NCBI RefSeq assembly: GCF_036053395.1 | Contig: NZ_CP107942.1 | Coordinates: forward strand, 7,954,501-8,018,500 | Source of the DNA: Actinoplanes sp. NBC_00393 | Lineage (GTDB): Bacteria > Actinomycetota > Actinomycetes > Mycobacteriales > Micromonosporaceae | Reading direction: 5' to 3' | DNA: 64,000 nucleotides | Part shown: piece by piece, positions 12,697 to 28,835 of the stretch | Position numbering within the stretch: the first letter of the stretch is position 1 | Layout: every line of letters starts with the position of its first letter | Notes under the pieces: generated by a model | Databases searched by the model: none | What the model was told of the DNA's origin: nothing | What the model saw: the letters and a program-made list of their open reading frames with translations, nothing else | Program-made: the position numbers and the translations under genes

Positions 12697-13578
12697 TTAG
12701 GCCGTACCGATGAATCGTGGTGATCCCGTGGCGCGCCAAACGGCGAGCGCATCGACGGTCGCGCCCACCTCGTGCACCCGGACCCCCCACGCGCCGGACG
12801 CGACCGCCAGGATCGAGGTGGCCAGAGTGGCCGCCTCGCGGCCGCCCACCGGGCGCGGCGTGCCGTCCGGACCGGCCAGCAGCCGACCCAGATAGGTCTT
12901 GCGGCTTGCCGCGAAAAGCACCGGAAAGCCCAGCTCGCGCAGGGTCTCGAGGTGGGCGCTGAGGGCCCAGTTGTGCTCGGCGGTCTTGGCGAAGCCCAGG
13001 CCGGGATCGAGGATGATCCGGCCCGGATCCACCCCGGCGGCGATCGCCTCGTCGGCGCGGGCCCGCAGTTCGTCGCGCACCTCGGCGACGACGTCCTGGT
13101 AGACGGCGAGTTTCTGCATGTCACGGGAGTGCCCGCGCCAGTGCATCAGGATCCAGGGGCAGCGCGCGGCGGCGGCGACCGCCGCCATGCCGGGATCGGC
13201 GAGCCCGCCGGAGACGTCGTTGATCACCGCGGCGCCGGCTTCCAGCGCCGCTTCGGCGACCGCGGCACGCGTGGTGTCGATACTTACCGGTACGCCCTCC
13301 GCGAACAGCCGCCGGATGACCGGGACCACCCGGCTGATCTCGGTTGCGGCGTCCACCCGCTCGGCGCCGGGCCGGGTCGACTCGCCGCCGACATCGATGA
13401 CATGGGCGCCCGCGCGGAAAAGGTCGATGCCATGTTGAACCGCGGCGTCGAGGTCGGTGTATCTCCCACCGTCAGAGAAAGAATCCGGCGTGACGTTGAG
13501 GACGCCCATCACGACCGGGTGATCCCGGCGGAGCAGTTCAGCACCTGTGAGCTGCGCGTCTGTCGGCGTGGTCGGCAC
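12697..13578 (-). CDS. folP: Dihydropteroate synthase
   Basis: 293 residues. It condenses hydroxymethyl-dihydropterin pyrophosphate with p-aminobenzoate and is the sulfonamide target. VMGVLNVTPDSFSDGGRY, the VGGESTRPGA loop, SIDTTRAAVAEAA, VINDVSGG and LDPGLGFAKT are all present. The GTG at 13578 is preferred over a TTG at 13584 because TACCCT lies exactly 6 nt before it, with no Shine-Dalgarno. It therefore heads a leaderless folP-folB-folK-DUF3180 transcript. In many actinobacteria folE lies immediately upstream; here it lies about 14.7 kb away at 28260-28835, in the same orientation. Confidence 0.95.
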   Translation of the reverse strand: MPTTPTDAQLTGAELLRRDHPVVMGVLNVTPDSFSDGGRYTDLDAAVQHGIDLFRAGAHVIDVGGESTRPGAERVDAATEISRVVPVIRRLFAEGVPVSIDTTRAAVAEAALEAGAAVINDVSGGLADPGMAAVAAAARCPWILMHWRGHSRDMQKLAVYQDVVAEVRDELRARADEAIAAGVDPGRIILDPGLGFAKTAEHNWALSAHLETLRELGFPVLFAASRKTYLGRLLAGPDGTPRPVGGREAATLATSILAVASGAWGVRVHEVGATVDALAVWRATGSPRFIGTA

Positions 13579-13584
13579 AGACAA

Positions 13585-13590
13585 AGGGTA
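13585..13590 (-). promoter_or_regulatory. TACCCT -10 element heading the folP operon
   Basis: On the minus strand TACCCT is followed by a 6-nt spacer and GTG at 13578. It decides the folP start. Confidence 0.55.
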
Positions 13591-13675
13591 CGGGGCGGCC
13601 GGCTTTAGAACACGTGTACGATGCCACGTGACTCAAATTCAACCACTCAATCACCTTGGGTAACGAAACGGGCGC

Positions 13676-13704
13676 TTGTTGCTCGCAAGTACGGGCCGTA
13701 CTCT
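13676..13704 (+). promoter_or_regulatory. Promoter of the secretion-machine operon
   Basis: TTGTTG (13676-13681) and TACTCT (13699-13704) are separated by 17 nt, a good fit to a housekeeping actinobacterial promoter, in a locally AT-richer region. Transcription would start near 13711, about 30 nt before the first ATG (13742) of the operon. Confidence 0.5.
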
Positions 13705-13741
13705 TCGGAACTGGGCATCATGAAGTGACCGAAGAGAGCAG

Positions 13742-13876
13742 ATGAGCATGGCAGTGCCCGAACGGCTCACTCGACGTGGTGAGTCAGAGGTAGCACGATA
13801 TGGGCGTTGCCGTACGGGTTCACAACTGCAGCGTGTCCGTAACCCCCATACCGGACACGGGGAGGTTTACCGATGA
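13742..13876 (+). CDS. Small 44-residue ORF coupled to the VirB2-like gene
   Basis: A 44-residue, strongly basic peptide (MSMAVPERLTRRGESEVAR... ending in HTGHGEVYR), with no membrane segment. Its TGA overlaps the next ATG as ATGA at 13873-13876, and a weak AAGAGAG precedes its ATG. Its position right behind the operon promoter and the exact overlap argue for translation. The next gene also has its own strong GGGGAGG, so the peptide is not needed for that gene's initiation. It could be a leader peptide or a small soluble component. Function unknown. Confidence 0.45.
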   Translation: MSMAVPERLTRRGESEVARYGRCRTGSQLQRVRNPHTGHGEVYR

Positions 13877-14133
13877 TCGCCACCGAGCTCGCCATCCTGG
13901 CGGCCCCAGCCGGCAGCATCAACACGGAAGGCATTGTCACCTTCTTCGCGAGCAACATTGCTCCGATCCTGCTCGCGGTCCTCGGCGTGATCTTCATCGG
14001 CCGAGCCAGTCGCGGCGAGATCTCGAAGGTGCTGACGAGTTCGGCGATCGCGATCGTGGGCCTGGCGTTCATCGCCGGCGCAGCGACGCTGTTCTTCGTG
14101 GGCGAATCGATCATCGAGCTGATCTTCAACTGA
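13873..14133 (+). CDS. VirB2/TrbC-like small two-TM protein
   Basis: 86 residues. A short N-terminal hydrophobic segment and a polar linker are followed by two membrane helices (NIAPILLAVLGVIFIGRAS and SSAIAIVGLAFIAGAATLFFV) joined by a short basic loop (RASRGEISK). This is the hairpin topology of VirB2/TrbC pilin-like subunits. Sequence similarity to true pilins is too weak to read by eye; the call rests on size, topology and position just before the VirB3/PrgI-like and VirB4-like genes. GGGGAGG lies about 7 nt before the ATG. Confidence 0.6.
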   Translation: MIATELAILAAPAGSINTEGIVTFFASNIAPILLAVLGVIFIGRASRGEISKVLTSSAIAIVGLAFIAGAATLFFVGESIIELIFN

Positions 14134-14134
14134 G

Positions 14135-14497
14135 ATGCGGCTCCGGACCGACGACGACATCTACCGGGCGCGCCTCGTCTATCTGGGCCCGCCCGGATAC
14201 ACACTGCCCGTCCACCTGCCGTACGCGCAGTACGGGATGTTCGTCGTGCTCGTGCCGCTCTTCATGTTCATCCACTACCTGATCACGCTCGACTTCGACC
14301 CCTTCCCGGCGTGGGAGATCGCCCTCGCCATGGTCACCACGTCGTACGTGTTCCGGCATGTCGACCCCGACCGCCCGGCCCGGGTCGTCATCCGCACCGC
14401 GCTCACCGACTGGCGCCGCACCCGTGAGCCCGCGGTGGAGCAACGGGATCCAAGACTTGTCGCCACTCGCATCCGGGTTCGGGAGGAGTTGGTATGA
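14135..14497 (+). CDS. PrgI/VirB3-like membrane protein
   Basis: 120 residues. A soluble N-terminal stretch (GPPGYTLPVHLPYAQYG) is followed by two close membrane helices (about 34-51 and 58-74) and a basic cytoplasmic tail (DPDRPARVVIRTALTDWRR). This is the layout of PrgI/VirB3-type proteins that sit next to the VirB4 ATPase in type IV secretion systems. It starts 1 nt after the stop of the VirB2-like gene and precedes the ATPase gene by one mini-ORF. Confidence 0.6.
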   Translation: MRLRTDDDIYRARLVYLGPPGYTLPVHLPYAQYGMFVVLVPLFMFIHYLITLDFDPFPAWEIALAMVTTSYVFRHVDPDRPARVVIRTALTDWRRTREPAVEQRDPRLVATRIRVREELV

Positions 14498-14538
14498 CCG
14501 GTTTGGCCGTCGTGCATCTCGGTGGAGTCTCCGCATGA
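14494..14538 (+). CDS. 14-residue mini-ORF bridging the PrgI-like and VirB4-like genes
   Basis: MTGLAVVHLGGVSA. Its ATG overlaps the TGA of the PrgI-like gene (ATGA, 14494-14497), and its TGA overlaps the ATG of the ATPase gene (ATGA, 14535-14538). A strong GGGAGGAG lies about 6 nt before its ATG. The arrangement looks built to hand ribosomes from one gene to the next; the peptide itself may have no function. It could also be a remnant of an earlier ATPase start, since both begin MTG. Confidence 0.4.
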   Translation: MTGLAVVHLGGVSA

Positions 14539-17500
14539 CCGGAACTCCTCCGCACGGGCATCCCCGCGCGGATGCCTCGTCCACAGGCAGGCAGAGTAAC
14601 GGTGTGCGTTCGGACAACTACTCCTCGCCTGACGACTCCGAAGAGCTCGTCACCGCGCCCGGACACGGTGGTGTGGGCGTGTTCCAGGCGCCGCAGCCGG
14701 TTCGTCCGCGGGGTTCGGCCGTCGACACCACGATGGACATCGACTCGCCCTTCCTCGACCTGTTCGGCGGGACCGCCACTCCGGTGCGTACCCCTGCTAC
14801 CCGTCCGAGTGATCTTTATGCGAAACCGGCCGAGGTGGATCCGGATCGTGGGTTCGGCTTCAACGACTCCGCGCCGGCGGTAGCGCCGCCCCCTTCCACC
14901 GCGGCCCGGCCTTCCACCGCGGCCCGGCCTTCCACCGCGGCCCGGCCTTCCTCCGCGGGCCCGGTTTCCTCGCCGCCGGCCCCTCCGGCCTCGGCGCCGC
15001 CGCCCTTCGCGCCTCCGGCTTCCCCGCCTGCTCCCTCCTCGCCGCCGTCCTCCTCGGCGGCCGCTTATTCCGCACCCTCGCCTTATTCGCCGCCCTCGCC
15101 CAACGGGCACCGGGAGGAGGCGCCGGAGGTCGCGGAGAGTTCGCCGGGGTGGAACGGGGCGCCGTTCACCCGGGCGCCGGTCGGGCCGAAGGCCGACTTC
15201 TTCCCGGAGCCGGAACCGGTTGCGCCGCCCGCGCCGGAGGTCGATCCGGAGGACGACTGGTCCGAGTTCGACGACTGGCCGATCTCGCCGCCTTCCTCCT
15301 CATCGCCGGCATCGTCTTCATCGCCGGCATCGTCGGCTTTGTCGAGGCCGCAGTCCTCGCCACCTGCTTCGCTGCCCGCCGAGCCGGTCCCGTTGTGGCA
15401 GCAGGCGGCACCGGCGCCGCTCCCGGTGCCGGTTCCGGAGCGCGCCCCGGCCGAGCGCCGGGAGAAGGCGCCCGCCAAGCGGGAGAAGAGCAAGGCGGTC
15501 AAGCGCAAGGAGCCGAAGCCGGCCAAGGCGGTCGCGCTCCGGCCGCAGAAGCTCAAGTTCAGCGATCGCGACCCGGCCATGGAGCTGGCGATCAGCGAGA
15601 TCGCCGGGCACCTCACCTTCACCCAGAGCACCGTGACAGCCTGGTACCACCTGCCCGAGGTGCGCTGGGCGTTCCGGCCCGACGCCGAGCGGGAGGCGCT
15701 GCTCAGCGCCATCTCCGAGCAGTACGCGGGCCTGGCCGGGTTCCGCCTGCACCTGCGCCGGACCACCCGCCCGTTCCCGGCCGACGAGTGGGCCCGCACG
15801 GTCGACTCGTTCACCGCCAAGCCCCTCGCGGACGTGCACGGCGCCACCTCGTGGTCCGACCACCTGGTCGCGGCGCAGCGCCACCTGCTCTCGGTGAATC
15901 ATGCGGAGGGGCAGACGTACCTGGGGGTGACCTTCGCCCGGCGCTCCCTCGGCGACACCTTCTCCGAGCGGATCCTGCGGGTCTTCGGCCGCGGCACCTC
16001 CGACGGCGAGCGGCGCAAGCTGGGCCGGACGGTCGAGCAGTTCGACGAGGTGCTGAACGCGTTCGGCATGCGGGGGCGACGCGTCACCCCGCAGGAGCTG
16101 GAGTGGCTGCTCTACCGGTCGGTGGCGCTCTGCATGGCCCCGCCCGGGCTGCTCTCGCCCGTCTCGAACGGGCACTGGGAGACCGGTGATCTACTCGCGC
16201 TGACCGAGCAGGTGGAGCGCTACCGTACGCCGTACGGGTCGACGGTCAAGCTGGTCAACCGGATGTCTGGCGAAGAACGGCACGTCGCTGTCCTCTCGGT
16301 CGGCCGGATGGAACCACTGGAGATCCCCGAGCGGCACGAGCCGTGGATGCACTTCCACGAGCGCCTGCCGTGGCCGATGGAGCTCTCCTCCCGGATCGAC
16401 ATCCTCGGCTCCGGCAGCTCGTTCAAGAACCTCGAACACCGGCTCCGGATGATCCGCTCGCAGCAGCTGGATTACGCCGAGCACGGCATCGACGCCCCGC
16501 CCGAGCTGGAACGGCTCGCCAAACGGGCGCTGGTGATCGGCGACGAGATGACCACCGGCCTGCCGGTCGAGTCGGCCCGGGCGCACGGCTGGCACCGGAT
16601 CGCGGTCGGCGGCGCCACCCGCGAGGAGTGCCTGGAGCGGGCCCGGCGGCTGATCCAGCTCTACTCCCGCGAGCTGCGGATCTCGCTGCAGCACCCGAAG
16701 GGGCAGGACCAGCTCGCCCGCGAGTTCATCCCGGGCGAGCCCATTGCCAACACCGGATATGTACGCCGGATGCCCGTGAAGCTGCTCGCCGCGGCTCTGC
16801 CCCAGGCCGCTTCCACGGTGGGTGACCGGCGCGGGGACCTGATCGGGCGGACCGCGGGGACGTGCCGCCGGCCGGTCTTCCTCGACCTGCATTTCCCGAT
16901 GGAGGTCCGGGAGCGCTCCGGTCTCGGAGTGTTCGTGGCCGAGCCCGGTGGTGGTAAATCGACGCTGATGGGTGCGCTCGGTTATCTGAACGCCCGGCGC
17001 GGCGTACAGGTGACTTTGCTCGACCCCTCCGGGCCGCTTGCTCGCCTCTGTCAGATGCCGGAGCTGCGGCCGTACAGTCGCGTTCTGAATTTGACCGGCT
17101 CCGAGCAGGGAACCCTGGCGCCGTATGCGCTGATCCCGACGCCGGTGCGCTCCGAGTTCCCGACCGGGCCGGCCGGCGACCGGGAGTACGAGATCGCCGT
17201 CTCGAACGCCCGCGCCGAACGCCGGATGCTGGTCCAGGACATCTGCTCGATGCTGGTGCCGCCGCAGGTCGCCAAGGAGGCGTCCACGGCGACGCTGCTG
17301 CGGCACGCGGTCCGCCAGGTGCCGGCCGAGGAGACGTCGACCCTCGACGACGTCGTGCGTACCCTGCAGGGCCTGGACGACGACGAGGGCAAGGAACTCG
17401 CCAACCTGCTGCTCGACACCGCCGAGATGCCGTTGGCGCTGCTCTTCTTCGGTCATCCGCCGCAGCACCTGCTCGGCGCCGACGCCGCGCTCACCGTCAT

Positions 17501-18104
17501 CACCATGGCCGGCCTGCGGCTCCCCGACCTCAAGATCGAGCGGGAGTACTGGTCGGCCGAGGAATCCCTGGCCCTGCCGATGCTGCACACCGCGCACCGG
17601 CTGGCGGTCCGCCGCTGCTACGGCGGCTCGATGTCGTCCCGCAAGATGGTCGGCCTGGACGAGGCCCACTTCATGGAAGGCTGGCGGTCCGGCCGATCGT
17701 TCCTGGTCCGGCTCGCCCGCGACTCCCGGAAATGGAACCTCGCGGCCCTGGTCGCCTCCCAGAACCCACGCGACATCCTCGGCCTCGACGTGCAGAACCT
17801 GGTCTCCACCGTCTTCGTCGGCCGCATCGCCGAAGACCAGGAGATCGCCTCCGAGGCCCTGCGGCTCCTGCGAGTGCCGGTGCACGACGGGTACGAGGCG
17901 ACGCTCGCCTCCCTCTCCCAGGTCGACACGTCGTCCCAGCACCGGCTCGGCTTCCGGGAATTCGTGATGCGGGACGTGGACGGGCGGGTCCAGAAGGTCC
18001 GGGTCGACGTCTCGTACGTCGAGGGCCTGCTGGAACACCTCGACACGACCCCGGGCACACCACCGCCCGCCGCGCTTCCTCTGCCGTCCGACCTGGAGGT
18101 GTGA
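14535..18104 (+). CDS. VirB4-like type IV secretion ATPase with disordered N-terminal extension
   Basis: 1189 residues. The first ~330 are Pro/Ser/Ala-rich and disordered, including STAARP repeated three times. From about residue 345 (AMELAISEIAGHLTFTQSTV) a VirB4/CagE-type N-domain follows, then a RecA-like ATPase: Walker A EPGGGKSTLMGAL near 803, Walker B KMVGLDEAHFM near 1038, and a C-terminal ALVASQNPRDIL segment as in VirB4/TraC. VirB4 proteins power assembly and substrate movement at the inner face of the membrane. The ATG at 14535 follows GGTGGAG by 5 nt and overlaps a mini-ORF; a longer frame starting at 14358 would run through the PrgI-like gene. Confidence 0.8.
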   Translation: MTGTPPHGHPRADASSTGRQSNGVRSDNYSSPDDSEELVTAPGHGGVGVFQAPQPVRPRGSAVDTTMDIDSPFLDLFGGTATPVRTPATRPSDLYAKPAEVDPDRGFGFNDSAPAVAPPPSTAARPSTAARPSTAARPSSAGPVSSPPAPPASAPPPFAPPASPPAPSSPPSSSAAAYSAPSPYSPPSPNGHREEAPEVAESSPGWNGAPFTRAPVGPKADFFPEPEPVAPPAPEVDPEDDWSEFDDWPISPPSSSSPASSSSPASSALSRPQSSPPASLPAEPVPLWQQAAPAPLPVPVPERAPAERREKAPAKREKSKAVKRKEPKPAKAVALRPQKLKFSDRDPAMELAISEIAGHLTFTQSTVTAWYHLPEVRWAFRPDAEREALLSAISEQYAGLAGFRLHLRRTTRPFPADEWARTVDSFTAKPLADVHGATSWSDHLVAAQRHLLSVNHAEGQTYLGVTFARRSLGDTFSERILRVFGRGTSDGERRKLGRTVEQFDEVLNAFGMRGRRVTPQELEWLLYRSVALCMAPPGLLSPVSNGHWETGDLLALTEQVERYRTPYGSTVKLVNRMSGEERHVAVLSVGRMEPLEIPERHEPWMHFHERLPWPMELSSRIDILGSGSSFKNLEHRLRMIRSQQLDYAEHGIDAPPELERLAKRALVIGDEMTTGLPVESARAHGWHRIAVGGATREECLERARRLIQLYSRELRISLQHPKGQDQLAREFIPGEPIANTGYVRRMPVKLLAAALPQAASTVGDRRGDLIGRTAGTCRRPVFLDLHFPMEVRERSGLGVFVAEPGGGKSTLMGALGYLNARRGVQVTLLDPSGPLARLCQMPELRPYSRVLNLTGSEQGTLAPYALIPTPVRSEFPTGPAGDREYEIAVSNARAERRMLVQDICSMLVPPQVAKEASTATLLRHAVRQVPAEETSTLDDVVRTLQGLDDDEGKELANLLLDTAEMPLALLFFGHPPQHLLGADAALTVITMAGLRLPDLKIEREYWSAEESLALPMLHTAHRLAVRRCYGGSMSSRKMVGLDEAHFMEGWRSGRSFLVRLARDSRKWNLAALVASQNPRDILGLDVQNLVSTVFVGRIAEDQEIASEALRLLRVPVHDGYEATLASLSQVDTSSQHRLGFREFVMRDVDGRVQKVRVDVSYVEGLLEHLDTTPGTPPPAALPLPSDLEV
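14894..14958 (+). repeat. 18-bp tandem repeat in the ATPase N-terminal region
   Basis: Three perfect copies of an 18-bp unit (TTCCACCGCGGCCCGGCC) and a partial fourth encode (STAARP)n in the disordered head of the VirB4-like protein. Confidence 0.85.
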
Positions 18105-18105
18105 G

Positions 18106-20055
18106 ATGGTGCGGCGCGGGTTGGCGTTCATCACGACCCTGGCCCTGGTCGTGGTGGCGTCGATTGCCTGGGCGGTGGCGGCGCCCTCCGACGCGTTCGC
18201 GGCACCGGCGAAGGCGCCGAACGGCGCCTGCAGCGTCGAGGAGTGGCAGCAGGACATCCAGGGCTGCGTGAAACGCCTGGCCGAGGTGGGAAGCACGCGG
18301 GCCCAGTGCCTGACGGCCCCCACACCCAGCACCCCGGACTCCGGCCTGGCCGGCTGGTTCGCCGAACGCCCGGCCTCCTCGAACAGCGGCAGCTTCCCCG
18401 GCCTCTACAGCGATTACGGGTATTCCGGGTACAGCTACACGACCTACGACCTCGAAGGCGGATGCGCGTCCACGATTGTCGACGCGGATCACAAAATCGA
18501 GAACACCATCGCCAACGGCGAGTTCATGATCGCGACCGCCGTCATCGGTGCCTCCAATGCGCTGCGCGAGCGCGCCTGGAATCCGGAAACGCTGTGGGGC
18601 TGGGCCGATCCGCTCGTCGACCAGGCGACCAAGGCGGTCTACCAGAAGGTCTTCACCGTCTTCGGTGTGGTGACCCTCGCGGTCATCGGCATCTACCTGC
18701 TGTGGCGTTCCCGGCAGGCCGAAATGGGCATGGCAACCACAACGGCCGGCTGGGCAATCCTGATCATGGTCATTGTCACGGCTATTGCTTCGTGGCCGGT
18801 GCGCTCCGCGAACATCGCCGACCAGACCCTGATCGGCACCCTGGGAGTCGTCCACGACGCCGTGGGCCCTCGCCCTGCGGAACCCAATCCTCGGTGCGTT
18901 CTCGGACCGGACGCCTGCACCGACAAGCGGCCCCCTGCGGTGCGTGCCAGCGACACCGCGACCGAGACCATGCTCTACCGAAACTGGCTCCGTGGTCTTC
19001 TCGGATCGGCCGACAGCGAGACCGCTCAGAAGTACGGTGAGGCGCTCTACAACGCTCGCTCCCTGAAGTGGGAGGAAGTCGAAAAGATCCGCACCAATCC
19101 TGCGACGCGCGACGCCACCTTGGATCGGAAGAGGGCCCAATGGGTGCGGGTCGCCGAGCAGATCAAGCAGGAGGACCCCGAGGCATACGAGTATCTCCAG
19201 GGCATCAACGGCATGGAGCGAGTCGGGGCGGGCTTCATCGCGATGCTCGCGGCATTCATGTTCGCGATGTTCGACATCACCGCCTCGCTTCTGGTTCTTC
19301 TAGGGTTCTTGATCTTCCGGTGGGCAGTGATCGCGGCACCTATTCTTGGAACAATCGGCCTGCTCCGTCCGGCCAGTTCCGGAATCCGTCGTCTTGGCAA
19401 TGCGGTGGTCGCAGCGGTCTTCAACATCGCCATATTCGGCACCGGCGCCGCCATCTACCTCTTCGCCGTCGACTTGATCATGAACACGGCGAGTCTCGCC
19501 GGCTGGTTGCAAGTCGTTCTGGTGTGGCTCTGCGGCGTGGTTGGATGGCTGCTTCTTCGCCCATACCGCCGGATCACCCAGCTCGGCGGAAAGGACAACG
19601 CAGCCGCGATCGCGTCAGCGGGCTCGTGGCACCGCCGTTTCTTCCGAGACGTGCGGGAGGCGGCCAAGCTGGAGGTGGCCGAGGGCGGTGGCACCCGGGA
19701 GCCGATGTTCGGCAAGGACGGGCGACCGATATATGTAGAGCAGCGAAACCTACGCCCGGAGGCGCGACTCGAGGACCCGGCCCACTCGGGTGCGTCGCGT
19801 AGCGCTCCCCCGGGGGAGGGTGCCTCAACCGCCGTCGCGACTCGTCCGGACGGCACCGAAACCACGCGGACCGACGCACCGGTCGCCAGTAGCGAGCAAC
19901 GGAGTCTGACCAGTTCGGCCAAAACCCGGAGCACGTCGGACTGGGCCGAGCCTGATGTAGCCGAGCGACCTGCTTCCTACGCCATCTACCGCCCGGAGAC
20001 GGGGTCGACTACGCAGGAACCGGCCAGCCCGCGGGTGCGTTCCGAGGCCAGGTGA
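18106..20055 (+). CDS. VirB6/TrbL-like polytopic membrane protein
   Basis: 649 residues. A signal peptide (cleavage probably after DAFAA) leads to a Cys-containing extracytoplasmic region (about 35-175, Tyr/Ser/Gly-rich centre). About seven membrane helices follow, in two groups around a ~110-residue soluble loop, then a ~130-residue disordered cytoplasmic tail. This is how VirB6/TrbL channel proteins of Gram-positive type IV systems are built. The gene begins 1 nt after the ATPase gene. From here to about 22.3 kb the base composition is visibly less GC-biased than the surroundings, consistent with imported or fast-evolving DNA. Confidence 0.65.
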   Translation: MVRRGLAFITTLALVVVASIAWAVAAPSDAFAAPAKAPNGACSVEEWQQDIQGCVKRLAEVGSTRAQCLTAPTPSTPDSGLAGWFAERPASSNSGSFPGLYSDYGYSGYSYTTYDLEGGCASTIVDADHKIENTIANGEFMIATAVIGASNALRERAWNPETLWGWADPLVDQATKAVYQKVFTVFGVVTLAVIGIYLLWRSRQAEMGMATTTAGWAILIMVIVTAIASWPVRSANIADQTLIGTLGVVHDAVGPRPAEPNPRCVLGPDACTDKRPPAVRASDTATETMLYRNWLRGLLGSADSETAQKYGEALYNARSLKWEEVEKIRTNPATRDATLDRKRAQWVRVAEQIKQEDPEAYEYLQGINGMERVGAGFIAMLAAFMFAMFDITASLLVLLGFLIFRWAVIAAPILGTIGLLRPASSGIRRLGNAVVAAVFNIAIFGTGAAIYLFAVDLIMNTASLAGWLQVVLVWLCGVVGWLLLRPYRRITQLGGKDNAAAIASAGSWHRRFFRDVREAAKLEVAEGGGTREPMFGKDGRPIYVEQRNLRPEARLEDPAHSGASRSAPPGEGASTAVATRPDGTETTRTDAPVASSEQRSLTSSAKTRSTSDWAEPDVAERPASYAIYRPETGSTTQEPASPRVRSEAR

Positions 20056-20061
20056 GTTGGT

Positions 20062-20604
20062 TTGGCGGGTTTCATCGAACGCAGCCTCACCGGGATTTTC
20101 CGTTCCCGGTGGGGGGTTGCCCTCGTGCTTGCCGGCATAGTGCTGGCAGTTGTGGGCATCGGGCGGCTCTTCTCCGACGGGCCGCCCACTACCGCCCTGG
20201 GCGGCGGAAGTCCCGCACCCGCGATCAGTGTGGACCCGTCCGAGGATGACAGCGTCGTTTCCACCGAGCCGCCGCCCACTCCGAAAACGCGTCCTGGTAA
20301 AGCACAACCTGAGGCAGTGGCCTACGCATTCGCCTCGGCGTGGGTCGACCACACGGACATAACCGGGAAGAAGTGGCGTGACCGCCTTCTGCCCAATGCC
20401 ACCAAGAGCCTCGCAGATCAACTCCGCGGCGTGGATCCCTCCGGAGTGCCGGCGGAACGGGTGATCGGCCGACCTAACCTCGTAGCGGTCAACGACTCCA
20501 TGGTCAACGCGATCGTCACCATGGACTCCGGCAAACTCACCCTCCGGCTGGTGGCGCCGGACGGGCTCTGGCTCGTCGACGGCATCGACTGGGAAGCAGC
20601 GTGA
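20062..20604 (+). CDS. VirB8-like bitopic membrane protein
   Basis: 180 residues. A short cytoplasmic head, one membrane helix (WGVALVLAGIVLAVVGIG) and a Pro-rich linker lead to a ~100-residue domain (QPEAVAYAFASAWVDHTDI to LWLVDGIDWEAA) that reads like an NTF2-type alpha/beta cone, the fold of VirB8/TcpC. VirB8 proteins bridge ATPase and channel. The only in-frame start that keeps the basic N-terminus is the TTG at 20062; a nearby GTG at 20052 is out of frame. Its TGA overlaps the next GTG (GTGA). Confidence 0.55.
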   Translation: MAGFIERSLTGIFRSRWGVALVLAGIVLAVVGIGRLFSDGPPTTALGGGSPAPAISVDPSEDDSVVSTEPPPTPKTRPGKAQPEAVAYAFASAWVDHTDITGKKWRDRLLPNATKSLADQLRGVDPSGVPAERVIGRPNLVAVNDSMVNAIVTMDSGKLTLRLVAPDGLWLVDGIDWEAA

Positions 20605-21716
20605 GATTCCCACGACCGCGCAAGGTCGTCCTACTGATCGCCCTGGTTGTGACACTTGCACTGCTCTGCTGTGGCGGCAGCCTGACAGTCCTGTTGCTCG
20701 GTGGAATCAGCGACGACAACCAAAGCGACTTGAATGCCTCGCTGGGCTGCGGCAAGGGCGGGCCAGTCGATCCCGATTCGAAGCTACCGCGACTCCGCCC
20801 CTACGGTGACGCACAGATCCGCAACGCCGCGGTAATCATCAACGTCGGAGCGGACCTGCAGATGCCGCCCCGCGCCTGGGTGATCGCCGTGGCGACGGCA
20901 ATGCAGGAGTCTCGTCTGGTCAATCTCGGTCACCTGGGCGCTCGCAACGACCACGACTCGCAGGGGCTGTTCCAGCAGCGGCCGAGTTCCGGTTGGGGTA
21001 CGCCGGAACAGGTCCGGGACCCGGTCTACGCCAGCACCAAGTTCTACGAGAAGCTGAAGACCGTCGAGGGCTGGCAGACGATGCCGCTGACCCGTGCCGC
21101 TCAGGCGGTGCAGATCAGCGCCTATCCGGATGCGTATGCCAAACACGAACCGCTGGCGACGCAGATCGTCAACCAGTTGGCCGACGGCGCGGCGGCTGCG
21201 GTCGGTGATTCGGTTTCCATGGTTTGTGCGGCATCCGGGCAGATCGCCGCCTCCGGTTGGACCATTCCGCTACGGGCAGGCGTAGGTTCCGGCTTCCGCA
21301 CCGCCGCGCGCCCTAATCATCAGGGCGTCGACCTGAGTATCGGCAAGTACACCCCGATCGGTGCGGTGGCCAGCGGCGTCGTATCGCTCGTGAAGTGTGA
21401 TGAGGACTTCAAGGGCCGGAAGAGCTGCAATGTGGACGGCTATCCGGGCAAGGGCGGATGTGGCTGGATGGTCGAGATCCAGCATGCCGGCAACGTGATG
21501 ACACGATACTGTCACCTGGTGCAACGGCCCTTCGTTCGAGAGAACCAGCAGGTGGCTGCCGGTGACATCATTGGACGGGTCGGCTCCAGCGGTAACTCGT
21601 CCGGCCCGCACCTGCATTTCGAGGTCCACATGAACAATGACCGTTCGAGCGCTGGCGCGGTGGACCCGGTGCAATTCATGCGCGATCAGGGTGCGCCTTT
21701 GGGTGGTGAAGGATGA
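20601..21716 (+). CDS. VirB1-like bifunctional cell-wall hydrolase: lytic transglycosylase plus M23 endopeptidase
   Basis: 371 residues. One N-terminal membrane anchor (about 9-33). A lysozyme-like domain (AVATAMQESRLVNLGHLG, with the presumed catalytic Glu in MQES, and GLFQQRPSSGWGT) spans about 80-200. A LytM/M23 zinc peptidase follows (NHQGVDLS and the HLHFEVH metal ligands) at about 220-365. Such double hydrolases open peptidoglycan for secretion apparatus and take the VirB1 role in Gram-positive conjugation systems. The GTG at 20601 overlaps the preceding TGA, and the last codons overlap the next ATG (ATGA), so expression is tightly coupled. Confidence 0.85.
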   Translation: MRFPRPRKVVLLIALVVTLALLCCGGSLTVLLLGGISDDNQSDLNASLGCGKGGPVDPDSKLPRLRPYGDAQIRNAAVIINVGADLQMPPRAWVIAVATAMQESRLVNLGHLGARNDHDSQGLFQQRPSSGWGTPEQVRDPVYASTKFYEKLKTVEGWQTMPLTRAAQAVQISAYPDAYAKHEPLATQIVNQLADGAAAAVGDSVSMVCAASGQIAASGWTIPLRAGVGSGFRTAARPNHQGVDLSIGKYTPIGAVASGVVSLVKCDEDFKGRKSCNVDGYPGKGGCGWMVEIQHAGNVMTRYCHLVQRPFVRENQQVAAGDIIGRVGSSGNSSGPHLHFEVHMNNDRSSAGAVDPVQFMRDQGAPLGGEG

Positions 21717-22315
21717 CGAGCGGCCCGTCATCGAGTTCCTCGTCCCACCCGAACTGGACGTCAGACGCACCGCGTCCGGTTGTGCCGACGCCTGCGACCA
21801 TGGGCGGCAATCTTCGCGGTCGCCGGGTGATCATCGGTCTACCTGGACACGGGTGGCGAGCCGATCTTCGTGCGGACGAGAAGGTCGTTCAAGGAAGTCG
21901 CACCTACGTGCCAGTGATCCCCGAGTCGGAGTGGTACCGCGCCGAGGCAGAACAGGTCGAGGTATTCGCTCCACTCGTCCCCGTCGAACGTGTCTGGGTC
22001 GAGGAATTCGGAATGGCGGGGCTCACCCTGCACGATGCAGAGACATCGCGGCTGGTGTCACTGGATGAGCCGCCTCGGCGATCCCCTCTTCCGGCTCTCG
22101 ATGCCAGTCATCTGACCGGCCGACGAGTGGTGGAGATTCCTCAAGACGGCGGCTCGGAAAAACGCGACCTGAGAGCGGTCACCGAGATTCACACGAGCGA
22201 AGACGGCCACGTCTGTGCCCGCGTATGCACAGAGCTGGATTGGTATCGATGGCAGTGGACCGGCCGTTCGCCTCGCACCGCTGAAGTGCCGGTCAATCGC
22301 CTCTGGGTCGAATAA
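21713..22315 (+). CDS. Hypothetical protein with two tandem copies of a ~65-residue domain
   Basis: 200 residues, soluble, with a Ser/Pro-rich head of ~30 residues. Two copies of one domain follow. Copy 1 starts LRGRRVIIGLPGHG and ends VPVERVWVE; copy 2 starts LTGRRVVEIPQDGG and ends VPVNRLWVE. Both contain a WYR motif (EWYRAEA, DWYRWQW) in the middle. The predicted fold is all-beta. No known family was recognised. It is the last gene of the secretion operon, coupled to the hydrolase by an ATGA overlap, and its stop abuts the stop of the convergent gene with no gap. It may be an adaptor or an accessory binding protein. Confidence 0.7.
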   Translation: MTSGPSSSSSSHPNWTSDAPRPVVPTPATMGGNLRGRRVIIGLPGHGWRADLRADEKVVQGSRTYVPVIPESEWYRAEAEQVEVFAPLVPVERVWVEEFGMAGLTLHDAETSRLVSLDEPPRRSPLPALDASHLTGRRVVEIPQDGGSEKRDLRAVTEIHTSEDGHVCARVCTELDWYRWQWTGRSPRTAEVPVNRLWVE

Positions 22316-22858
22316 TCAGATCTGGGTCGCGCCGCACACCCGCCACCCATCCTGATCAACAACGGCAAACTGCCAGGAGCTGCTGTCACGGCCTGCCTGG
22401 CTGGCGACCGTTCGGGTGAGATCGACGCTCACAGTCCCGGTTGATCCGGCGGTTTGCACCTCAAGGCTGGACCAAGATGTCGAAATCCCCACAGAGAACT
22501 CCTGCTCTCGACTGACCGTGTCGTCACGGTACTGAGAAAGCTGGGCGAAATCGCCGCCGGCCTCGCATTGATAGAGCTTCGCTTCATTGTCGTCCCTGGC
22601 GACAAGGTAGGCGCCGAGAAAGCTGTCCACCACCGCGTCGGGCTCTGTGCGATTGATTTCGGTGGCTTCGTCGTAGAGGGCTATGAAGAGGCCCACGCCG
22701 CCCAGGCATAGCAGGGCCATGATGCCTGCGCCCAAGGCCAGCGCCAGCCGTGCGCGCCGGGACTGCAACCGGCCGGATCGGCGGGGTGGCTTCGGCGTCA
22801 CCATGGGGGTGGCCGGCGTCGACGGCTCGGCCGAGGTGTCGGGCTCACGCGGCTGCAT
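22316..22858 (-). CDS. Bitopic membrane protein with NTF2-like extracytoplasmic domain
   Basis: 180 residues. A Pro/Thr-rich basic cytoplasmic head of ~35 residues and one membrane helix (ALALGAGIMALLCLGGVGLFIAL) lead to a ~115-residue domain starting EPDAVVDSFLGAYLVARDD and ending FAVVDQDGWRVCGATQI. It has a Cys pair (YQCEAGG and VCGA) and resembles the DUF4878/NTF2 group; the protein at 61183-61998 has the same build. The ATG at 22858 follows TACTGT by 7 nt (leaderless type). Another possible start (GTG, 22864) lies too close to that element. Function unknown; it follows the candidate immunity gene. Confidence 0.6.
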   Translation of the reverse strand: MQPREPDTSAEPSTPATPMVTPKPPRRSGRLQSRRARLALALGAGIMALLCLGGVGLFIALYDEATEINRTEPDAVVDSFLGAYLVARDDNEAKLYQCEAGGDFAQLSQYRDDTVSREQEFSVGISTSWSSLEVQTAGSTGTVSVDLTRTVASQAGRDSSSWQFAVVDQDGWRVCGATQI

Positions 22859-22865
22859 ACCCACG

Positions 22866-23179: not shown

Positions 23180-24172
23180 CTATACCGGATCGATGACGTT
23201 GATGCTGGTCACGTTCGGGTTGTTCTGCAAGGCCGGGAGTTCCCGGTTGAGCCAGATGCTGCGGTTGCTGGGGGCGTGCGTCCAGGCCGTGACCTCGCCG
23301 ACCGCGTTCTCGGCGTACCGTTCCGACAATCGGCCCCAGATCTTGTCGGCGTGTTCCTTGGTGACCGGCGACCCGGCCTCGTACAGCGCTCGGGCGTCGA
23401 ACCGATTGCCGCCGGGGGTCTGTTCCAGGGTGAGCGAGAGGACGCCGTCGGTGTTGGCCTCGGCGTAGGCCCGCATACGCGTACCGTCGTAGGCAGCTCC
23501 GGAGTAGAACGTGGCGCCGTCGAGCGGGCTGCGTACATCGGCTCTTTCGACCTCGCGCATCAGCCGGTGGAAGTCGGAGTTCTGGCCGAAGTGCCTGGCC
23601 AGCCGGCCGGCGCTCTGCGCCGCGGCGTGGCTGCCGGCGGTGCGCAGCAGGTCGGCGGCGCGGGCGAAGGTCTGCGCCACCTCGCCTTCGATCACCTGCA
23701 GCGACCGGTGGATGATCTCGCGGCAGGCGAGGCGGCTCGCGGCGACGAAGACCGGGATCTCGGCGAGGGTGGCGCCGGCGGTGACGAAGGAGGTGGCCAC
23801 CGCCTGCCCGACCTGGAACGCCAGGATGGTGAGCTGGGCGAGGAACGCCGTCTTGAGGGCGACGGTCACGCCGGCCATGGCGATCAGGCCGGCACCGATC
23901 AGCTCTACCGCGGTGGCGGCATCGGCCAGGTGGCGGCCGGGACCCTCGGGGCCGTTCCACCACTGTTCGAAGGCTTCGACGGAGGCGCCTTCGTTCTCCA
24001 TCCAGACGCGGCGGGCCGCGGCGTCGGCCTCCGCCGCGTGGATCCGCAACCGCCCGCCGTGCTCGATCCAGGCCCGGCCGTCGGCGTAGAGGCGGTCCTC
24101 GTCGGCTTGCGGCCAGGTGAGGCCGACCCAGCCGAGCGGCTCGGTCAGTTCGGCGGGCAGTTCGATGGTCAT
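23180..24172 (-). CDS. Type VII-secreted toxin: CpnT-like N-domain plus CD38-like NADase/ADP-ribosyl-cyclase domain
   Basis: 330 residues. Residues 1-180 match the helical WXG100-like/channel domain seen in CpnT-type effectors (GWVGLTWPQADEDRLYADG..., two hydrophobic helices at about 90-148). Residues 215-330 look like an ADP-ribosyl-cyclase domain. TLEQT (Glu250) matches CD38 TLEDT (Glu146). KIWGRLSERYAENA (Trp279, Ser283) matches FWKTVSRRFAEAA (Trp189, Ser193). RELPALQ (Glu311) matches SVEVHNLQ (catalytic Glu226), and Tyr223 takes the place of Trp125. Such domains destroy or cyclise NAD. ATGA overlap with the WXG gene; candidate immunity gene 9 nt downstream. The enzyme call is inference from motif alignment by eye. 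Confidence 0.65.
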   Translation of the reverse strand: MTIELPAELTEPLGWVGLTWPQADEDRLYADGRAWIEHGGRLRIHAAEADAAARRVWMENEGASVEAFEQWWNGPEGPGRHLADAATAVELIGAGLIAMAGVTVALKTAFLAQLTILAFQVGQAVATSFVTAGATLAEIPVFVAASRLACREIIHRSLQVIEGEVAQTFARAADLLRTAGSHAAAQSAGRLARHFGQNSDFHRLMREVERADVRSPLDGATFYSGAAYDGTRMRAYAEANTDGVLSLTLEQTPGGNRFDARALYEAGSPVTKEHADKIWGRLSERYAENAVGEVTAWTHAPSNRSIWLNRELPALQNNPNVTSINVIDPV

Positions 24173-24552
24173 GGCCCGGAAACCAGCCCGGAAGCGGAGA
24201 GACCGGAAGCCAGCCCGGAAGCGGAGAGACCGGAAGCCAGGCCGGCAGCGGAGAGGGCCGACGCCGATTCGGCGTCGGTGTCGGCGAGAGCACGAGCCTG
24301 AACGGCCAGGTTGAGCGCCGCATCACCCATCTGCTGGACGTACGAGCCGAGCGCACCCAACGCATGCCCCAGCACCGACTGATAGGCCACCGCGAACGCG
24401 GAGCCACTCTCGTCGTCCCCCCACGGAGTCGCCGCCCCGTGCACGGTGGACTCCAGGACGGCCACGTCGTCGGCCATGCGCTGCGCGATGCCGGCGAGCA
24501 CCCCTCCGGCCGCGGCGATGGAATCCGGATCCAGCTGAAGCCGTACTCCCAT
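24169..24552 (-). CDS. WXG100-like type VII secretion protein with repetitive tail
   Basis: 127 residues. A helical hairpin with WGDDESGSAFAVAY at the turn is the DDE variant of the WXG motif, found in ESX proteins that partner CpnT-like toxins. The last ~35 residues consist of a 9-residue repeat (LSASGLASG type). Probably co-secreted with the toxin whose ATG overlaps its TGA. The ATG at 24552 is chosen because GGGGAGG lies 6 nt before it; the longer open frame upstream has no such site. Confidence 0.75.
   Translation of the reverse strand: MGVRLQLDPDSIAAAGGVLAGIAQRMADDVAVLESTVHGAATPWGDDESGSAFAVAYQSVLGHALGALGSYVQQMGDAALNLAVQARALADTDAESASALSAAGLASGLSASGLASGLSASGLVSGP
24177..24257 (-). repeat. 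27-bp tandem repeat, three copies
   Basis: Three near-identical 27-bp units (24177-24203, 24204-24230, 24231-24257) encode the 9-residue repeats at the C-terminus of the WXG100-like protein, right before the toxin start. Confidence 0.8.
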
Positions 24553-24699
24553 TTCGGCCTCCCCTCGACCGCGAATACCACTGATGCACGCTCCGGGTTC
24601 AAAGCAACACGGTGCGGCGCGAAAGTGGCATCGGGGACGCAACGCGGCGCATGCGCGGGTCTGGGATAAGTTTTATTCCGCGGACAGGAGGTGGTGGCA

Positions 24700-27303
24700 G
24701 TGGCGGATTCGACTCTGCGGGTCCGGCAGGCCGCTGCTTTGCACCGGCAGGCGGCGGCGACGGTGGACGCGGCCGCTGCCGCGCTGGAGGCGTACGCCCC
24801 GGCCGTTGTCGACCCCCGGGAGCAGCACCGGCTTGCCGAGCGGTTGCGGACAGCGGCCGACCGGCTGGCGCCCGGCTGGCTGGGCGCCACGTTGGACGCG
24901 CTGTCGCCGACCGCACCGCTCGGTGATGGTGGGGGCACGCCGCAATTCGTCCGGCTGGGGGTCGCTCAGCCGTTGGACGACGTCCGGTTTCCAGCGGTCG
25001 TGCCATTGCTCGGCGCGGGTCACCTGACCGTTGACGCGACCGCCACCGATCCGCGCGTGTTCGGTTTGCTGCGCTCGCTGCTGCTGCGCCTGCTGGCTGC
25101 CTCCCCGGCCGGGTCCCTGCTGGTCCGCACCGTTGACGGCATCGGCGGCGGCGCGGTGTTCGCCCCGTTCGAGGAGCTGGCCGACGCCGGGCTGATGGCG
25201 CCACCGGCGACCGATCGGCAGGGCCTTCGCGACGTGCTCTCCGAGGCGGAGAAGTGGCTGCGCCCGGTGCGCGGCGGCGCCACCCGGCGCAACCGGCGGG
25301 ACCGGATGATGCTGGTCGTGATCGCCAGCCTGCCGGAGCTGACCGAGGGCGAGGAGTTGCGCCGGATCGCGGCGCTGGCGCAGCAGGGACCGGATTCCGG
25401 GCTGCATCTGATCGTGGCCGGCTGGCCGCCTCCGCCGCTGACCGCGGAGACCACGCAGGCGCCGCTGCCGCGGACCACCGCGATCTCGGTGCGCAACCCG
25501 TTCGCGATCATCGGGGATCCGCCGGGCGGCACGTTCGGCTCGACGCCCGAGGCGCTGTGGCTGAACGCCCCGGTCTTCCTGGACGAGGATCCGCCGCCAC
25601 ACCTGATCGACGCGGTCTGCCACGAGCTCGCCGCGGACACCGCGGAGGCCTCCCGAGTCACACTCGCCGACCTGCTGCCCGAGGCCGCCGACGAGATGTG
25701 GGGCGGTGACGCGGCGGCCGGGGTGGAGACCGTGGTGGGCCATCACGGAGATGTGCCGCTGGTGCTGCGGTTCAACGACCTGACCCCGCACTGGATGGTG
25801 GGTGGCCGCTCCGGCGCCGGTAAGACCGCCTTCCTGATCAACGTGCTCTACGGCCTGGGCACCCGGTACGGGCCGGACCAGCTCGCCCTCTACCTGCTCG
25901 ACTTCAAGGAGGGCGTGTCCTTCGCGGAGTTCGTGCCGACCCGGCGGGACCGCACCTGGCTGCCGCACGCCCGCGCGGTCGGCGTCGAGTCCGACCGGGA
26001 GTACGGGCTGGCCGTCCTGCGCGAGCTAGACGCCGAGATGGGCCGCCGCTCGATGGCGTACAAGCGGGCCGGGGTGTCGCGCTTCGCGGATCTGCGGGCG
26101 GTCGTCGCCGAGGAGGGCCGGGGGACACCGCTGCCGCGGATCCTCTGCGTGATCGACGAGTTCCAGGTGCTGCTGGCCGGAAACGACCCGACCGCTGCCG
26201 ACGCGGTGGCACTGCTCGAGTCATTGGCGCGCAAGGGCCGGTCGTACGGGATTCATCTGGTCCTGGCCAGCCAGACCGTGCTCGGCGTGGAAGCGCTCTA
26301 CGCCAAGCGGGACTCGATCTTCGGTCAGTTCCCGGTCCGGATCGCACTGCCGGGCGGTGGGGACGTGCTGGAGCCCACCAACGACGCCGCCGCGGGCCTG
26401 CCGATGGGCAGCGCGGTGGTGAACACCGCCGGCGGGCTGGGTGGCCCGCGCGGCGCCACCCGCGGTCACGAACGGGTGGTGCGCTTTCCCGACCCGCACG
26501 CTGACCAGCCGCTCCTCAGCGACCTGCGGCATCGGCTGTGGGGCGCCCGCGACCCGGAGGCGGTGCCGCCCCGGGTCTTCGCCGGGTACGCCCATCAGCA
26601 CCTCGCCGACGACCCCACCTACCGCGCCGCGCTGGCCGGCCGGCTGGGTCGCCCCGCGGCCCTGGTCGGCCGGGTGATCGACGTCAGCCTGTCGACGGCC
26701 ACCTTCCCCCTGGACTCCTCCCCGGGACGGCACCTGGCCATCCTGGGCTCCCTGCCGACCGGCGCCGAGGTCCTGGACGCCGCGGCCCGCAGTGTCGCCG
26801 CCGCGCACGCTCCGCGTACCGCTCGGTTCGTGATCGCGTCGCTGGTCGCTGAGGGTGACGCCGTGGCCGCCGAGTTGGCCGCCGAGTTGGCCGCCGAGCT
26901 CGCCCACCGGCAGGAGGTGGTGGTGGTCGACGCCGCCGGCCTCGCCGCCGAGCTGGATGCGGAACGCCCCGGCTACCGGGTGATCTTCGGGATGGACGCC
27001 GCTCCGCCGGGCAGCCTGACCGGCCTGCGGCAGCTGCTGCGGGACGGTCCGAGCCGCGGCGCCCACCTGCTGTCCTGGTGGCGCGGGGTGCGCCGGTTCG
27101 GCGAGGAGACCGGGGGCAGCATGGGCCGCGAGGACGTGGCCGGCCTGCTCTTCCTGAACGTGCCGCAGCAGGACGTCTCGCTGATGCTCGGCCGGGCGGT
27201 CGACTGGCATCCCCGGGAGAACCGGGCGCTGTTGCACGATCGCCAGGCCGACCGCACGGTGACGGTGGTTCCGTTCGTCCATCCAGAAAGTGACGTGCCG
27301 TGA
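24700..27303 (+). CDS. FtsK/SpoIIIE-family ATPase with one intact and one degenerate motor domain
   Basis: 867 residues, no membrane helix. A helical N-terminus precedes an ATPase domain with Walker A GGRSGAGKTAF (near 368), LLDFKEGVSFAEF, Walker B ILCVIDEFQVLL (near 483) and LVLASQT. A second domain near 680 retains the fold signature GRHLAILGSLPTGAEV but its P-loop lacks the GK(S/T). This is the family that contains EccC of type VII secretion, although EccC proteins carry membrane helices. It probably serves the divergent WXG/toxin genes. GTG at 24700 is used because AGGAGG lies 8 nt before it. It heads a three-gene operon. Confidence 0.75.
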   Translation: MADSTLRVRQAAALHRQAAATVDAAAAALEAYAPAVVDPREQHRLAERLRTAADRLAPGWLGATLDALSPTAPLGDGGGTPQFVRLGVAQPLDDVRFPAVVPLLGAGHLTVDATATDPRVFGLLRSLLLRLLAASPAGSLLVRTVDGIGGGAVFAPFEELADAGLMAPPATDRQGLRDVLSEAEKWLRPVRGGATRRNRRDRMMLVVIASLPELTEGEELRRIAALAQQGPDSGLHLIVAGWPPPPLTAETTQAPLPRTTAISVRNPFAIIGDPPGGTFGSTPEALWLNAPVFLDEDPPPHLIDAVCHELAADTAEASRVTLADLLPEAADEMWGGDAAAGVETVVGHHGDVPLVLRFNDLTPHWMVGGRSGAGKTAFLINVLYGLGTRYGPDQLALYLLDFKEGVSFAEFVPTRRDRTWLPHARAVGVESDREYGLAVLRELDAEMGRRSMAYKRAGVSRFADLRAVVAEEGRGTPLPRILCVIDEFQVLLAGNDPTAADAVALLESLARKGRSYGIHLVLASQTVLGVEALYAKRDSIFGQFPVRIALPGGGDVLEPTNDAAAGLPMGSAVVNTAGGLGGPRGATRGHERVVRFPDPHADQPLLSDLRHRLWGARDPEAVPPRVFAGYAHQHLADDPTYRAALAGRLGRPAALVGRVIDVSLSTATFPLDSSPGRHLAILGSLPTGAEVLDAAARSVAAAHAPRTARFVIASLVAEGDAVAAELAAELAAELAHRQEVVVVDAAGLAAELDAERPGYRVIFGMDAAPPGSLTGLRQLLRDGPSRGAHLLSWWRGVRRFGEETGGSMGREDVAGLLFLNVPQQDVSLMLGRAVDWHPRENRALLHDRQADRTVTVVPFVHPESDVP

Positions 27304-27977: not shown

Positions 27978-27987
27978 AAGGGCTGCG

Positions 27988-28259: not shown

Positions 28260-28835
28260 CTACCTGGCGTTTATCAAGGCCATCACTTCGGCGCGGACCT
28301 TGCCGTCGGTCTGGAAACCGCCGCGCACCGCCGAAGTGACCGTGCGCGCGCCGGCCTTGCGGATGCCACGCATCTCCATGCAGAGGTGCTCGCACTCCAG
28401 CACCACGATCGCACCGCGCGCCCCGAGCTGCGCCATCAGCAGGTCAGCGATCTGCGAGGTGAGGCGTTCCTGCACCTGCGGCCGGCGGGCATAGACCTCC
28501 ACGAGCCGGGCCAGCTTGGACAGCCCGGTGATCCGCCCGTCGGTGCCGGGGATGTAGCCGATGTGCGCGACACCCTTGAACGGCAGCAGGTGGTGCTCAC
28601 ACATGCTCTGCACCGAGATGTCGCGGACCAGCACGAGTTCTTCGTGGTCCGCCTCGAAGCTGGTGGTGAGCACGGTCGCCGGGTCCACCCGCAGGCCGGC
28701 GAAGAGCTCGGCATAGGCGCGGGCCACCCGGGCCGGGGTGCGCTGAAGCCCGTCACGATCCGGGTCCTCACCGACTGCGATGAGAATCTCCCGGACCGCC
28801 TTCTCGATCCGCCCGAGGTCGACGGCCTGCTCCAC
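28260..28835 (-). CDS. folE: GTP cyclohydrolase I
   Basis: 191 residues from the GTG at 28835. It converts GTP to 7,8-dihydroneopterin triphosphate, the first step of folate synthesis. Zinc ligands are visible in [10 protein letters not shown] and [26 protein letters not shown] and RPQVQERLT follow the family. The start is uncertain. The frame stays open for 23 further codons up to the ftsH stop ([23 protein letters not shown]) and looks like protein, yet holds no ATG, GTG or TTG, and the GTG has no good Shine-Dalgarno. It lies 72 nt after ftsH. folP, its usual neighbour, is displaced by the island. Confidence 0.93.

Follow-up and report, generated by a model that had tools for sequence, protein, structure and literature searches.

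The Streptomyces chromosome carries a conserved cluster, cmdABCDEF (SCO4126-4131), that encodes a VirB4-like ATPase and membrane proteins; according to excerpts of the report on it (PMC2782261), deletion of the cluster causes defects in branching, septation, chromosome segregation and sporulation, and an SLP2-derived plasmid was reported to transfer as before, the data not being shown there. The type IV secretion system (T4SS) of the Patescibacteria is also chromosomal, and excerpts of PMC12102498 describe it as a lineage-wide VirB4 clade of MPF-FATA ancestry that is mostly without a relaxase and is thought to have been co-opted; the same excerpts name Ptl and Brucella VirB as T4SSs without a coupling protein. 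In Micromonospora lupini, the excerpted account in PMC4182475 gives the virB4 gene MiLup08_42651 as a lone T4SS gene whose neighbors are unknown genes with relatives in two other Micromonospora. Here we analyze a seven-gene locus, genes A-G, in a 64,000-nucleotide stretch of the chromosome of Actinoplanes sp. NBC_00393 (contig NZ_CP107942.1, positions 7,954,501 to 8,018,500; this whole stretch is called the window below, and positions are counted from its first letter). We think it probable that genes A-F encode a domesticated, non-conjugative export core. The module shares ancestry with a module of linear plasmids, and it appears to have become fixed in the chromosome ahead of the divergence of most of the sampled Micromonosporaceae.

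A first-pass annotation, made without database searches, had described seven tightly coupled plus-strand genes for an orphan T4SS-like machine inserted between folP and folE. The gene cluster is real. Genes A-G occupy positions 13873-22315 of the plus strand, their spacing ranging from gaps of 37 bases to overlaps of 4, and none of them has an internal stop:

Gene A, 13873..14133, plus strand: 86 aa, two predicted transmembrane helices; small membrane protein at the VirB2 position.
Gene B, 14135..14497, plus strand: 120 aa, one predicted helix; membrane protein at the PrgI/TcpE (VirB3) position.
Gene C, 14535..18104, plus strand: 1189 aa, VirB4/TcpF-type ATPase with a Pro-rich N-terminal extension of ~300 aa.
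Gene D, 18106..20055, plus strand: 649 aa, VirB6-like polytopic membrane protein with six hydrophobic segments.
Gene E, 20062..20604, plus strand: 180 aa, at the VirB8/TcpC position; a single helix at the N-terminus, followed by a domain presumed to be extracytoplasmic.
Gene F, 20601..21716, plus strand: 371 aa, VirB1-like wall hydrolase with an SLT-like domain followed by an M23 metallopeptidase.
Gene G, 21713..22315, plus strand: 200 aa, soluble; an addition to the module in this lineage.

The start of gene C (ATG at 14535) was assigned by eye, and homology searches used the in-frame GTG at 14604.

Three of these proteins can be given T4SS identities, as the first-pass annotation had proposed for them. 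C matches Pfam AAA_10 (E-value 7e-24) and NCBIfam TcpF (3.4e-21; at 75 bits this is far under the model cut-off). Its Walker motifs are intact, GGGKST and DEAH being invariant in 18 family sequences, and when C is combined with plasmid and other relatives in one profile, the solved VirB4 4ag5 is matched at 2e-15; a PDB search with C as a single sequence gave no match. Judged from its sequence, C is a VirB4 ATPase, and its N-terminal arm contains a short conserved stretch near the start. F matches Pfam Peptidase_M23 (2e-23), and residues E103, H240, D244, H337 and H339, which we take to be catalytic, are invariant in 13 of 13 family members; the SLT-like label of its first domain is our assumption, drawn from the plasmid counterparts described below. 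D itself matches the CD3337/EF1877 mobilome membrane family weakly (0.0085), and seven of the 15 members of a wider D alignment match that family, at best at 2.7e-28, so that D is VirB6-like by way of the sequences of its relatives. Thus VirB4, VirB6-like and VirB1-like components of a T4SS are all recognizable here, the second of them through relatives. The VirB2, VirB3 and VirB8 labels proposed for A, B and E fared less well: neither these three proteins nor G has a credible direct family match in Pfam or NCBIfam, which leaves the three labels to rely on position, size and predicted helices. B has a conserved core with DD and LGP, and two of 12 B relatives touch TcpE at 0.008, the window's own B having no match. 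Thirteen E relatives gave no match to VirB8 or TcpC families, and the PDB search for E gave no convincing match. By eye, G looks like two repeats (GRRV...DLRA...WYR...WVE), for which no known family was matched. The module is like the Tcp/Tn916-type (MPF-FATA) apparatus of the Firmicutes in the match of C to TcpF, of D relatives to CD3337/EF1877 and, faintly, of B relatives to TcpE; it differs in being chromosomal and family-wide, with no recognized coupling protein or relaxase of its own at the locus. The MPF-FATA-like class label of A-F is one that we presume from relatives.

The kinship of the module with linear plasmids emerges from a tblastn search of C against 72,556 plasmids. It matched 333 records, all at less than 60% identity and none across 80% of the query, and among the 20 matches listed the similarity begins at residue 300-328 of C. 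Nine records were inspected (the eight top matches and one from Rhodococcus); among them are plasmids of Streptomyces (SM17 pSM17C, NEAU-S7GS2 and FR-008 pSSFR2), Nonomuraea, Pseudonocardia and Rhodococcus aetherivorans, and all are linear. The likeness lies in the six-gene order: in nine of nine the annotation begins with a small gene and one of ~120 aa, continues with VirB4 and a large gene of membrane-protein size, and ends with a smaller gene and one for a wall hydrolase. Nonomuraea has an additional small gene, and pRVR2 a 97-aa gene in place of E. We compared the module gene by gene, using family profiles (and blastp for F), with three of these plasmids, two from Streptomyces (L085, L088) and one from Nonomuraea (L086), in a set of 38 proteins. 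Genes A-F are collinear one-for-one with the plasmid module, A weakly so: the A profile matches the first plasmid gene at 4e-6, 5e-4 and 0.08, the last not standing clear of background, and the B profile matches the second gene at 8e-14 to 6e-10. The C profile finds the plasmid VirB4s at 7e-175 to 2e-155 (35-37% identity across more than 840 aligned positions), and those of D and E find their counterparts at 1e-69 to 4e-52 and at 6e-24 to 2e-19, respectively. Residues 72-196 of F share 52-57% identity with the NlpC/P60 proteins of two of the plasmids, and residues 11-193 share 36% with the protein of the third. The six other linear plasmid records show a like layout by annotation only.

There are also differences between the two modules. 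The ~300-aa Pro-rich N-terminal extension of C is unmatched in the three plasmid homologues tested, and G has no counterpart among the 38 proteins. The plasmid wall hydrolase is annotated as NlpC/P60 or C40 in eight records and as a DD-metalloendopeptidase in Rhodococcus, whereas chromosomal F is SLT-like plus M23. In seven of the nine plasmids the annotation places an FtsK/SpoIIIE or T4SS DNA-transfer gene close to the module; of the other two, pSSFR2 has an unnamed gene at the place of the coupling gene and the Pseudonocardia stretch inspected has none. PLSDB types all nine (L085, L086, L088, L202-L207) as non-mobilizable, and they perhaps carry a T4SS subtype peculiar to linear plasmids of actinobacteria, one that mobility typing overlooks. 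Among viral contigs there were five pattern matches, none of them a relative.

On the chromosome the module is widespread and usually keeps its place. Of 61 genomes sampled from the GTDB family, 57 carry VirB4 (among the good-quality genomes, 54 of 57). In 56 of the 57 carriers the match is single, and the remaining genome has a second one at 29% identity; full-length VirB4s in other genomes are 76-98% identical across the ATPase part. A scan with B found 226 named loci, and we examined the best 80, whose titles give Actinoplanes, Micromonospora, allied genera and one Micromonosporaceae metagenome-assembled genome; this sample is biased, because these are the loci closest by B. In all 80, folB and folP lie left of the module in the same orientation, and in 74 of the 80 (74 of the 75 loci with enough sequence) A-G and then the neighboring gene h follow in order, so that the arrangement of the locus is not due to chance. 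Five of the six named loci without D-G end at a contig edge within 733 bases of B. The sixth, L192 from Micromonospora acroterricola, has matches to folP, A, B and C and no D-G, though 7463 bases remain, a gap that would reflect either a deletion or an assembly fault. A broader tblastn sample of 20 family loci has A-D and F in all 20, E in 19 and G in 16. There folP adjoins the module in 14; the other six, which the VirB4 tree unites in a single supported clade, have no folP in the 16-20 kb examined, and in the three of these six that were listed every open reading frame (ORF) of at least 90 aa that is common to at least two other no-folP loci lies within the A-F stretch, on either strand. A conjugative element would be expected to be patchy in distribution and to vary in site, and the counts of 57 of 61 genomes and of folP adjoining in 80 of 80 and 14 of 20 loci do not follow that pattern.

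In a midpoint-rooted VirB4 tree, the 21 sequences sampled from the family all fall into a single clade (SH-aLRT 100), and the nine linear-plasmid VirB4s lie beside it (joining branch 85; this is a quick tree in which long branches were flagged). The word "inserted" in the first-pass annotation, if it is taken to mean an intrusion, is at odds with this single clade and with a VirB4 that is nearly always present in one copy; since VirB4 occurs in 57 of 61 genomes, folP adjoins the module at every one of the 80 named loci and 74 of 75 keep the A-G order, the module is not a recent insertion. Beyond the family, a phylum-wide protein search matched seven of 296 genomes, two within the family and five others at 31-35% identity, and occurrence there may be under-counted because at most five candidates per genome were scored. 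A search with an alignment (A1) of 18 of the 21 family sequences matched four of 12 genomes outside the family, and none of seven presumed Streptomyces. The module is present in the M. lupini strain at L164, which we infer to be the locus of MiLup08_42651; the other components, the plasmid kinship and the family-wide conservation are not recognized in the excerpted text of PMC4182475. In open-licence papers that lone virB4 was the only trace of the Micromonosporaceae module that we found, and the excerpted text of a paper on integrative and conjugative elements in Actinobacteria (PMC3218068) makes no mention of it. As a domesticated T4SS core the module is apparently undescribed in that literature.

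Selective constraint was estimated with a Nei-Gojobori style script in five comparisons with relatives of the Actinoplanes group. Omega is 0.022-0.048 for the VirB4 core against 0.156-0.213 for folP, and the VirB4 core is therefore under stronger purifying selection than that gene. For B it is 0.032-0.081, and for whole C 0.059-0.139, which is above the core value because the N-terminal arm varies. Synonymous sites of D-G are near saturation, and omega of the module genes is at most 0.24 wherever it could be computed. This constraint is the pattern of a working core gene and not that of a decaying mobile element.

The closed 11.43-Mb genome has no match to T4SS-DNA_transf (PF02534), Relaxase (PF03432) or TrwC (PF08751), controls in known genomes being positive, and to the extent of these three families the first-pass view that no relaxase or VirD4 accompanies the cluster holds for the whole genome. 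The SM17 plasmid coupling protein found no match in 16 family genomes, in a search without a positive control; the Nonomuraea FtsK found matches of 28-30% identity (1e-8 to 8e-6) in four of 16, with a plasmid control at 6e-58. Thus no relaxase or coupling ATPase belonging to the module was recognized among the families and plasmid coupling proteins searched. Together with the wide occurrence and the mostly constant site, these findings bear out the earlier proposal of an orphan T4SS-like machine that is unlike a conjugative element.

The genes around the module are as follows:

folP, 12697..13584, minus strand: divergent left neighbor; Pterin_bind 6e-86.
Neighbor h, 22316..22864, minus strand: convergent, one helix, near the Rv0361 family; membership in the machine uncertain.
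Gene i, 23180-24172, minus strand: WXG100_2 domain.
Small ORF, 24169-24552, minus strand: WXG100-looking, judged by eye.
Neighbor k, 24691..27303, plus strand: 870 aa, soluble FtsK/EccC-like ATPase with no predicted helix.
folE, 28260..28835, minus strand: GTP_cyclohydroI 1e-75.

The left flank is folP, folB and folK, all on the minus strand, and the right flank runs h, i, the small ORF, k, l, m, then folE and ftsH (both minus). The earlier picture of a cluster that by itself divides folP from folE does not survive this map: folE is 5.9 kb from the module with other genes filling the interval, among them k, which the first-pass annotation had overlooked, and six of the 20 broader loci have no folP nearby. 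The match of h to Rv0361_Cterm (33.9 bits) is below the cut-off of 37, and h adjoins G even at loci where G sits apart from F. The small genes l (with predicted membrane helices) and m lie by k, and together with k and the WXG100-like genes this region (24691-28248) has the appearance of a reduced type VII secretion system (T7SS)-like set. Within a long ORF at 38995-42933 there is an EccC-type match to k (at 7994884-7995360 of the genome), and the window may also contain an ESX/T7SS locus.

The 5' leader of gene A (~13735-13865) can be drawn with several stems, one of them just before the ribosome-binding site, and is conserved in Actinoplanes and near genera. Among 15 such loci the model has 28 pairs, six with compensatory changes, and a covariation term of -0.36. 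Searched in 29 sources, it matched the window and two loci of Winogradskya, weakly (0.017) a site before A in Catenuloplanes, and at chance level (0.9) a site in L167 that is not before A. A cross-genus alignment of 24 sequences gave no consensus pairs, and there was no Rfam match. Covariation is weak, and we did not retain the structured leader.

Starting from the observed homology, collinearity, wide occurrence, constraint and conserved motifs, we infer how such a module might work. A-F would be the channel core of a monoderm (MPF-FATA-like) T4SS, in which F would open the cell wall, A, B, D and E would build a channel across membrane and wall, and C would power assembly and ATP-driven export. 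Since neither a coupling ATPase of plasmid type nor any of the relaxases tested for turned up, the cargo would probably be a host-encoded protein or peptide rather than a processed DNA strand; similarly, classical DNA transfer is unlikely because no coupling protein is recognized. Recruitment of the cargo would perhaps fall to the Pro-rich N-terminal extension of C, which is specific to this lineage, and possibly also to soluble G, a step that we offer tentatively.

A number of points weigh against a domesticated, non-conjugative export core. The genome-wide search for coupling proteins and relaxases covered three Pfam families only. The FtsK-class ATPase k lies 2.4 kb downstream of the module, the window's genome is one of the four with a weak match (1e-6) to the Nonomuraea FtsK coupling protein, and for these two reasons a coupling function encoded outside the module is possible. 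A weak match to the SLP2-type ATPase on contig 1 of this genome (216526-217590, L103; 30%, 2.9e-7, with one TGA inside) means that a second, distant system may be present in it. For A, B and E there is no direct match to the curated VirB2, VirB3 and VirB8 families. Four of the 61 genomes show no VirB4, namely G005, which is 69% complete, G038, which is in 780 contigs, and the two of genus g24, and a midpoint-rooted tree does not fix the direction of descent between chromosome and plasmid.

Orthology with Streptomyces cmdABCDEF was our first lead. On a rival reading the module works like that membrane complex, as a developmental machine needed for sporulation septation and chromosome segregation in mycelial actinomycetes, perhaps moving DNA or protein within the hypha rather than out of it. 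Both clusters are conserved, chromosomal and built of a VirB4-like ATPase and membrane proteins, and the cmd phenotypes and the reportedly unaffected plasmid transfer (excerpts of PMC2782261) speak for this reading. The SLP2 ATPase as query found cmd-like loci in seven of seven genomes of one presumed Streptomyces genus; such loci encode an ATPase and a large membrane protein, with another protein in the place of CmdE. The same SLP2 ATPase had no match to the VirB4 profile. The E profile matches the ORF at the CmdE position weakly in five of six cmd-type loci (8e-6, 1e-4, 6e-4, 8e-4 and 0.018); however, three other ORFs of these loci score 0.001-0.017, and not all of the E matches are therefore clear of background. 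Profile comparisons gave 36% for E against CmdE, 7% for C against CmdB (in the P-loop region only), 0.2% for C against CmdC, 0.2% for D against CmdD and 0.3% for B against CmdC, and have little power because the profiles are shallow. E apart, there is thus no significant profile similarity past the P-loop, orthology is unsupported by the comparisons with CmdB, CmdC and CmdD, and on these profiles cmd is best treated as an analogy and not as a demonstrated member of the family. The VirB1-like hydrolase moreover suggests a channel that crosses the wall, and we consider a cmd-like developmental role rather unlikely. A decaying remnant of an integrated linear plasmid or integrative and conjugative element would explain the homology to plasmid modules and the G+C content of the cluster (67.7% against 71.0% for the window), but the unbroken reading frames, low omega, wide occurrence, kept gene order and invariant motif residues already contradict it, and we give it almost no credence.

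Conjugation could instead be hidden, with k or another FtsK/TraB-type ATPase acting as coupling protein and DNA still being transferred in the manner of the actinomycete FtsK-like translocases. In keeping with this, k matches FtsK_SpoIIIE (2e-18) and weakly TraG-D_C (0.0037), lies in the same folP-folE interval and follows the module in 63 of the 80 named loci (which end at 10 kb), and most of the inspected linear plasmids have a coupling-type gene annotated beside the module. However, the best NCBIfam match of k is EccCa (4e-25), it has no predicted helix, its neighbors are of WXG100 type, and its similarity to the plasmid coupling proteins is 0.013 at best. Nor does its distribution track that of VirB4: k has matches in 16 of 16 genomes tested (several matches in 15), VirB4-less G023 and G054 of genus g24 carry it at 55% and 53% identity, G027 has VirB4 and a k match of only 33%, and in six genomes with the module elsewhere the nearest k-like gene is at least 25 kb off. 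We therefore rejected k as a coupling protein and regard it as part of the neighboring WXG100-associated set, although a functional link to the module is possible since k so often follows it; hidden conjugation as a whole seems to us improbable. At the g24 locus of G023 (L089), the order k, l, folE, ftsH is kept and no folP was found in the 20-kb stretch examined; this genus may have lost the T4SS.

Carried to its furthest form, the proposal of a domesticated export core becomes a housekeeping T4SS without a coupling protein, in which VirB4, by way of a disordered Pro-rich arm and with G, would select host proteins or peptides and export them through the envelope in nearly all Micromonosporaceae, in the service of mycelial or spore life; we hold this to be possible but doubtful. 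According to the excerpts of PMC12102498, the Patescibacteria VirB4 often has a coupling-protein homologue associated with it, whereas none is recognized for this module. If the proposal of a domesticated core is true, most of a family of antibiotic-producing, spore-forming bacteria would have recruited a channel of conjugation type to serve as a core cell machine, apparently dispensing with the coupling ATPase found in most T4SSs, and the module would test what a minimal secretion-competent T4SS can be. It would parallel the co-opted T4SS of the Patescibacteria in cells that are easier to grow, and the system is genetically simple: one operon, usually in one copy, in culturable strains.

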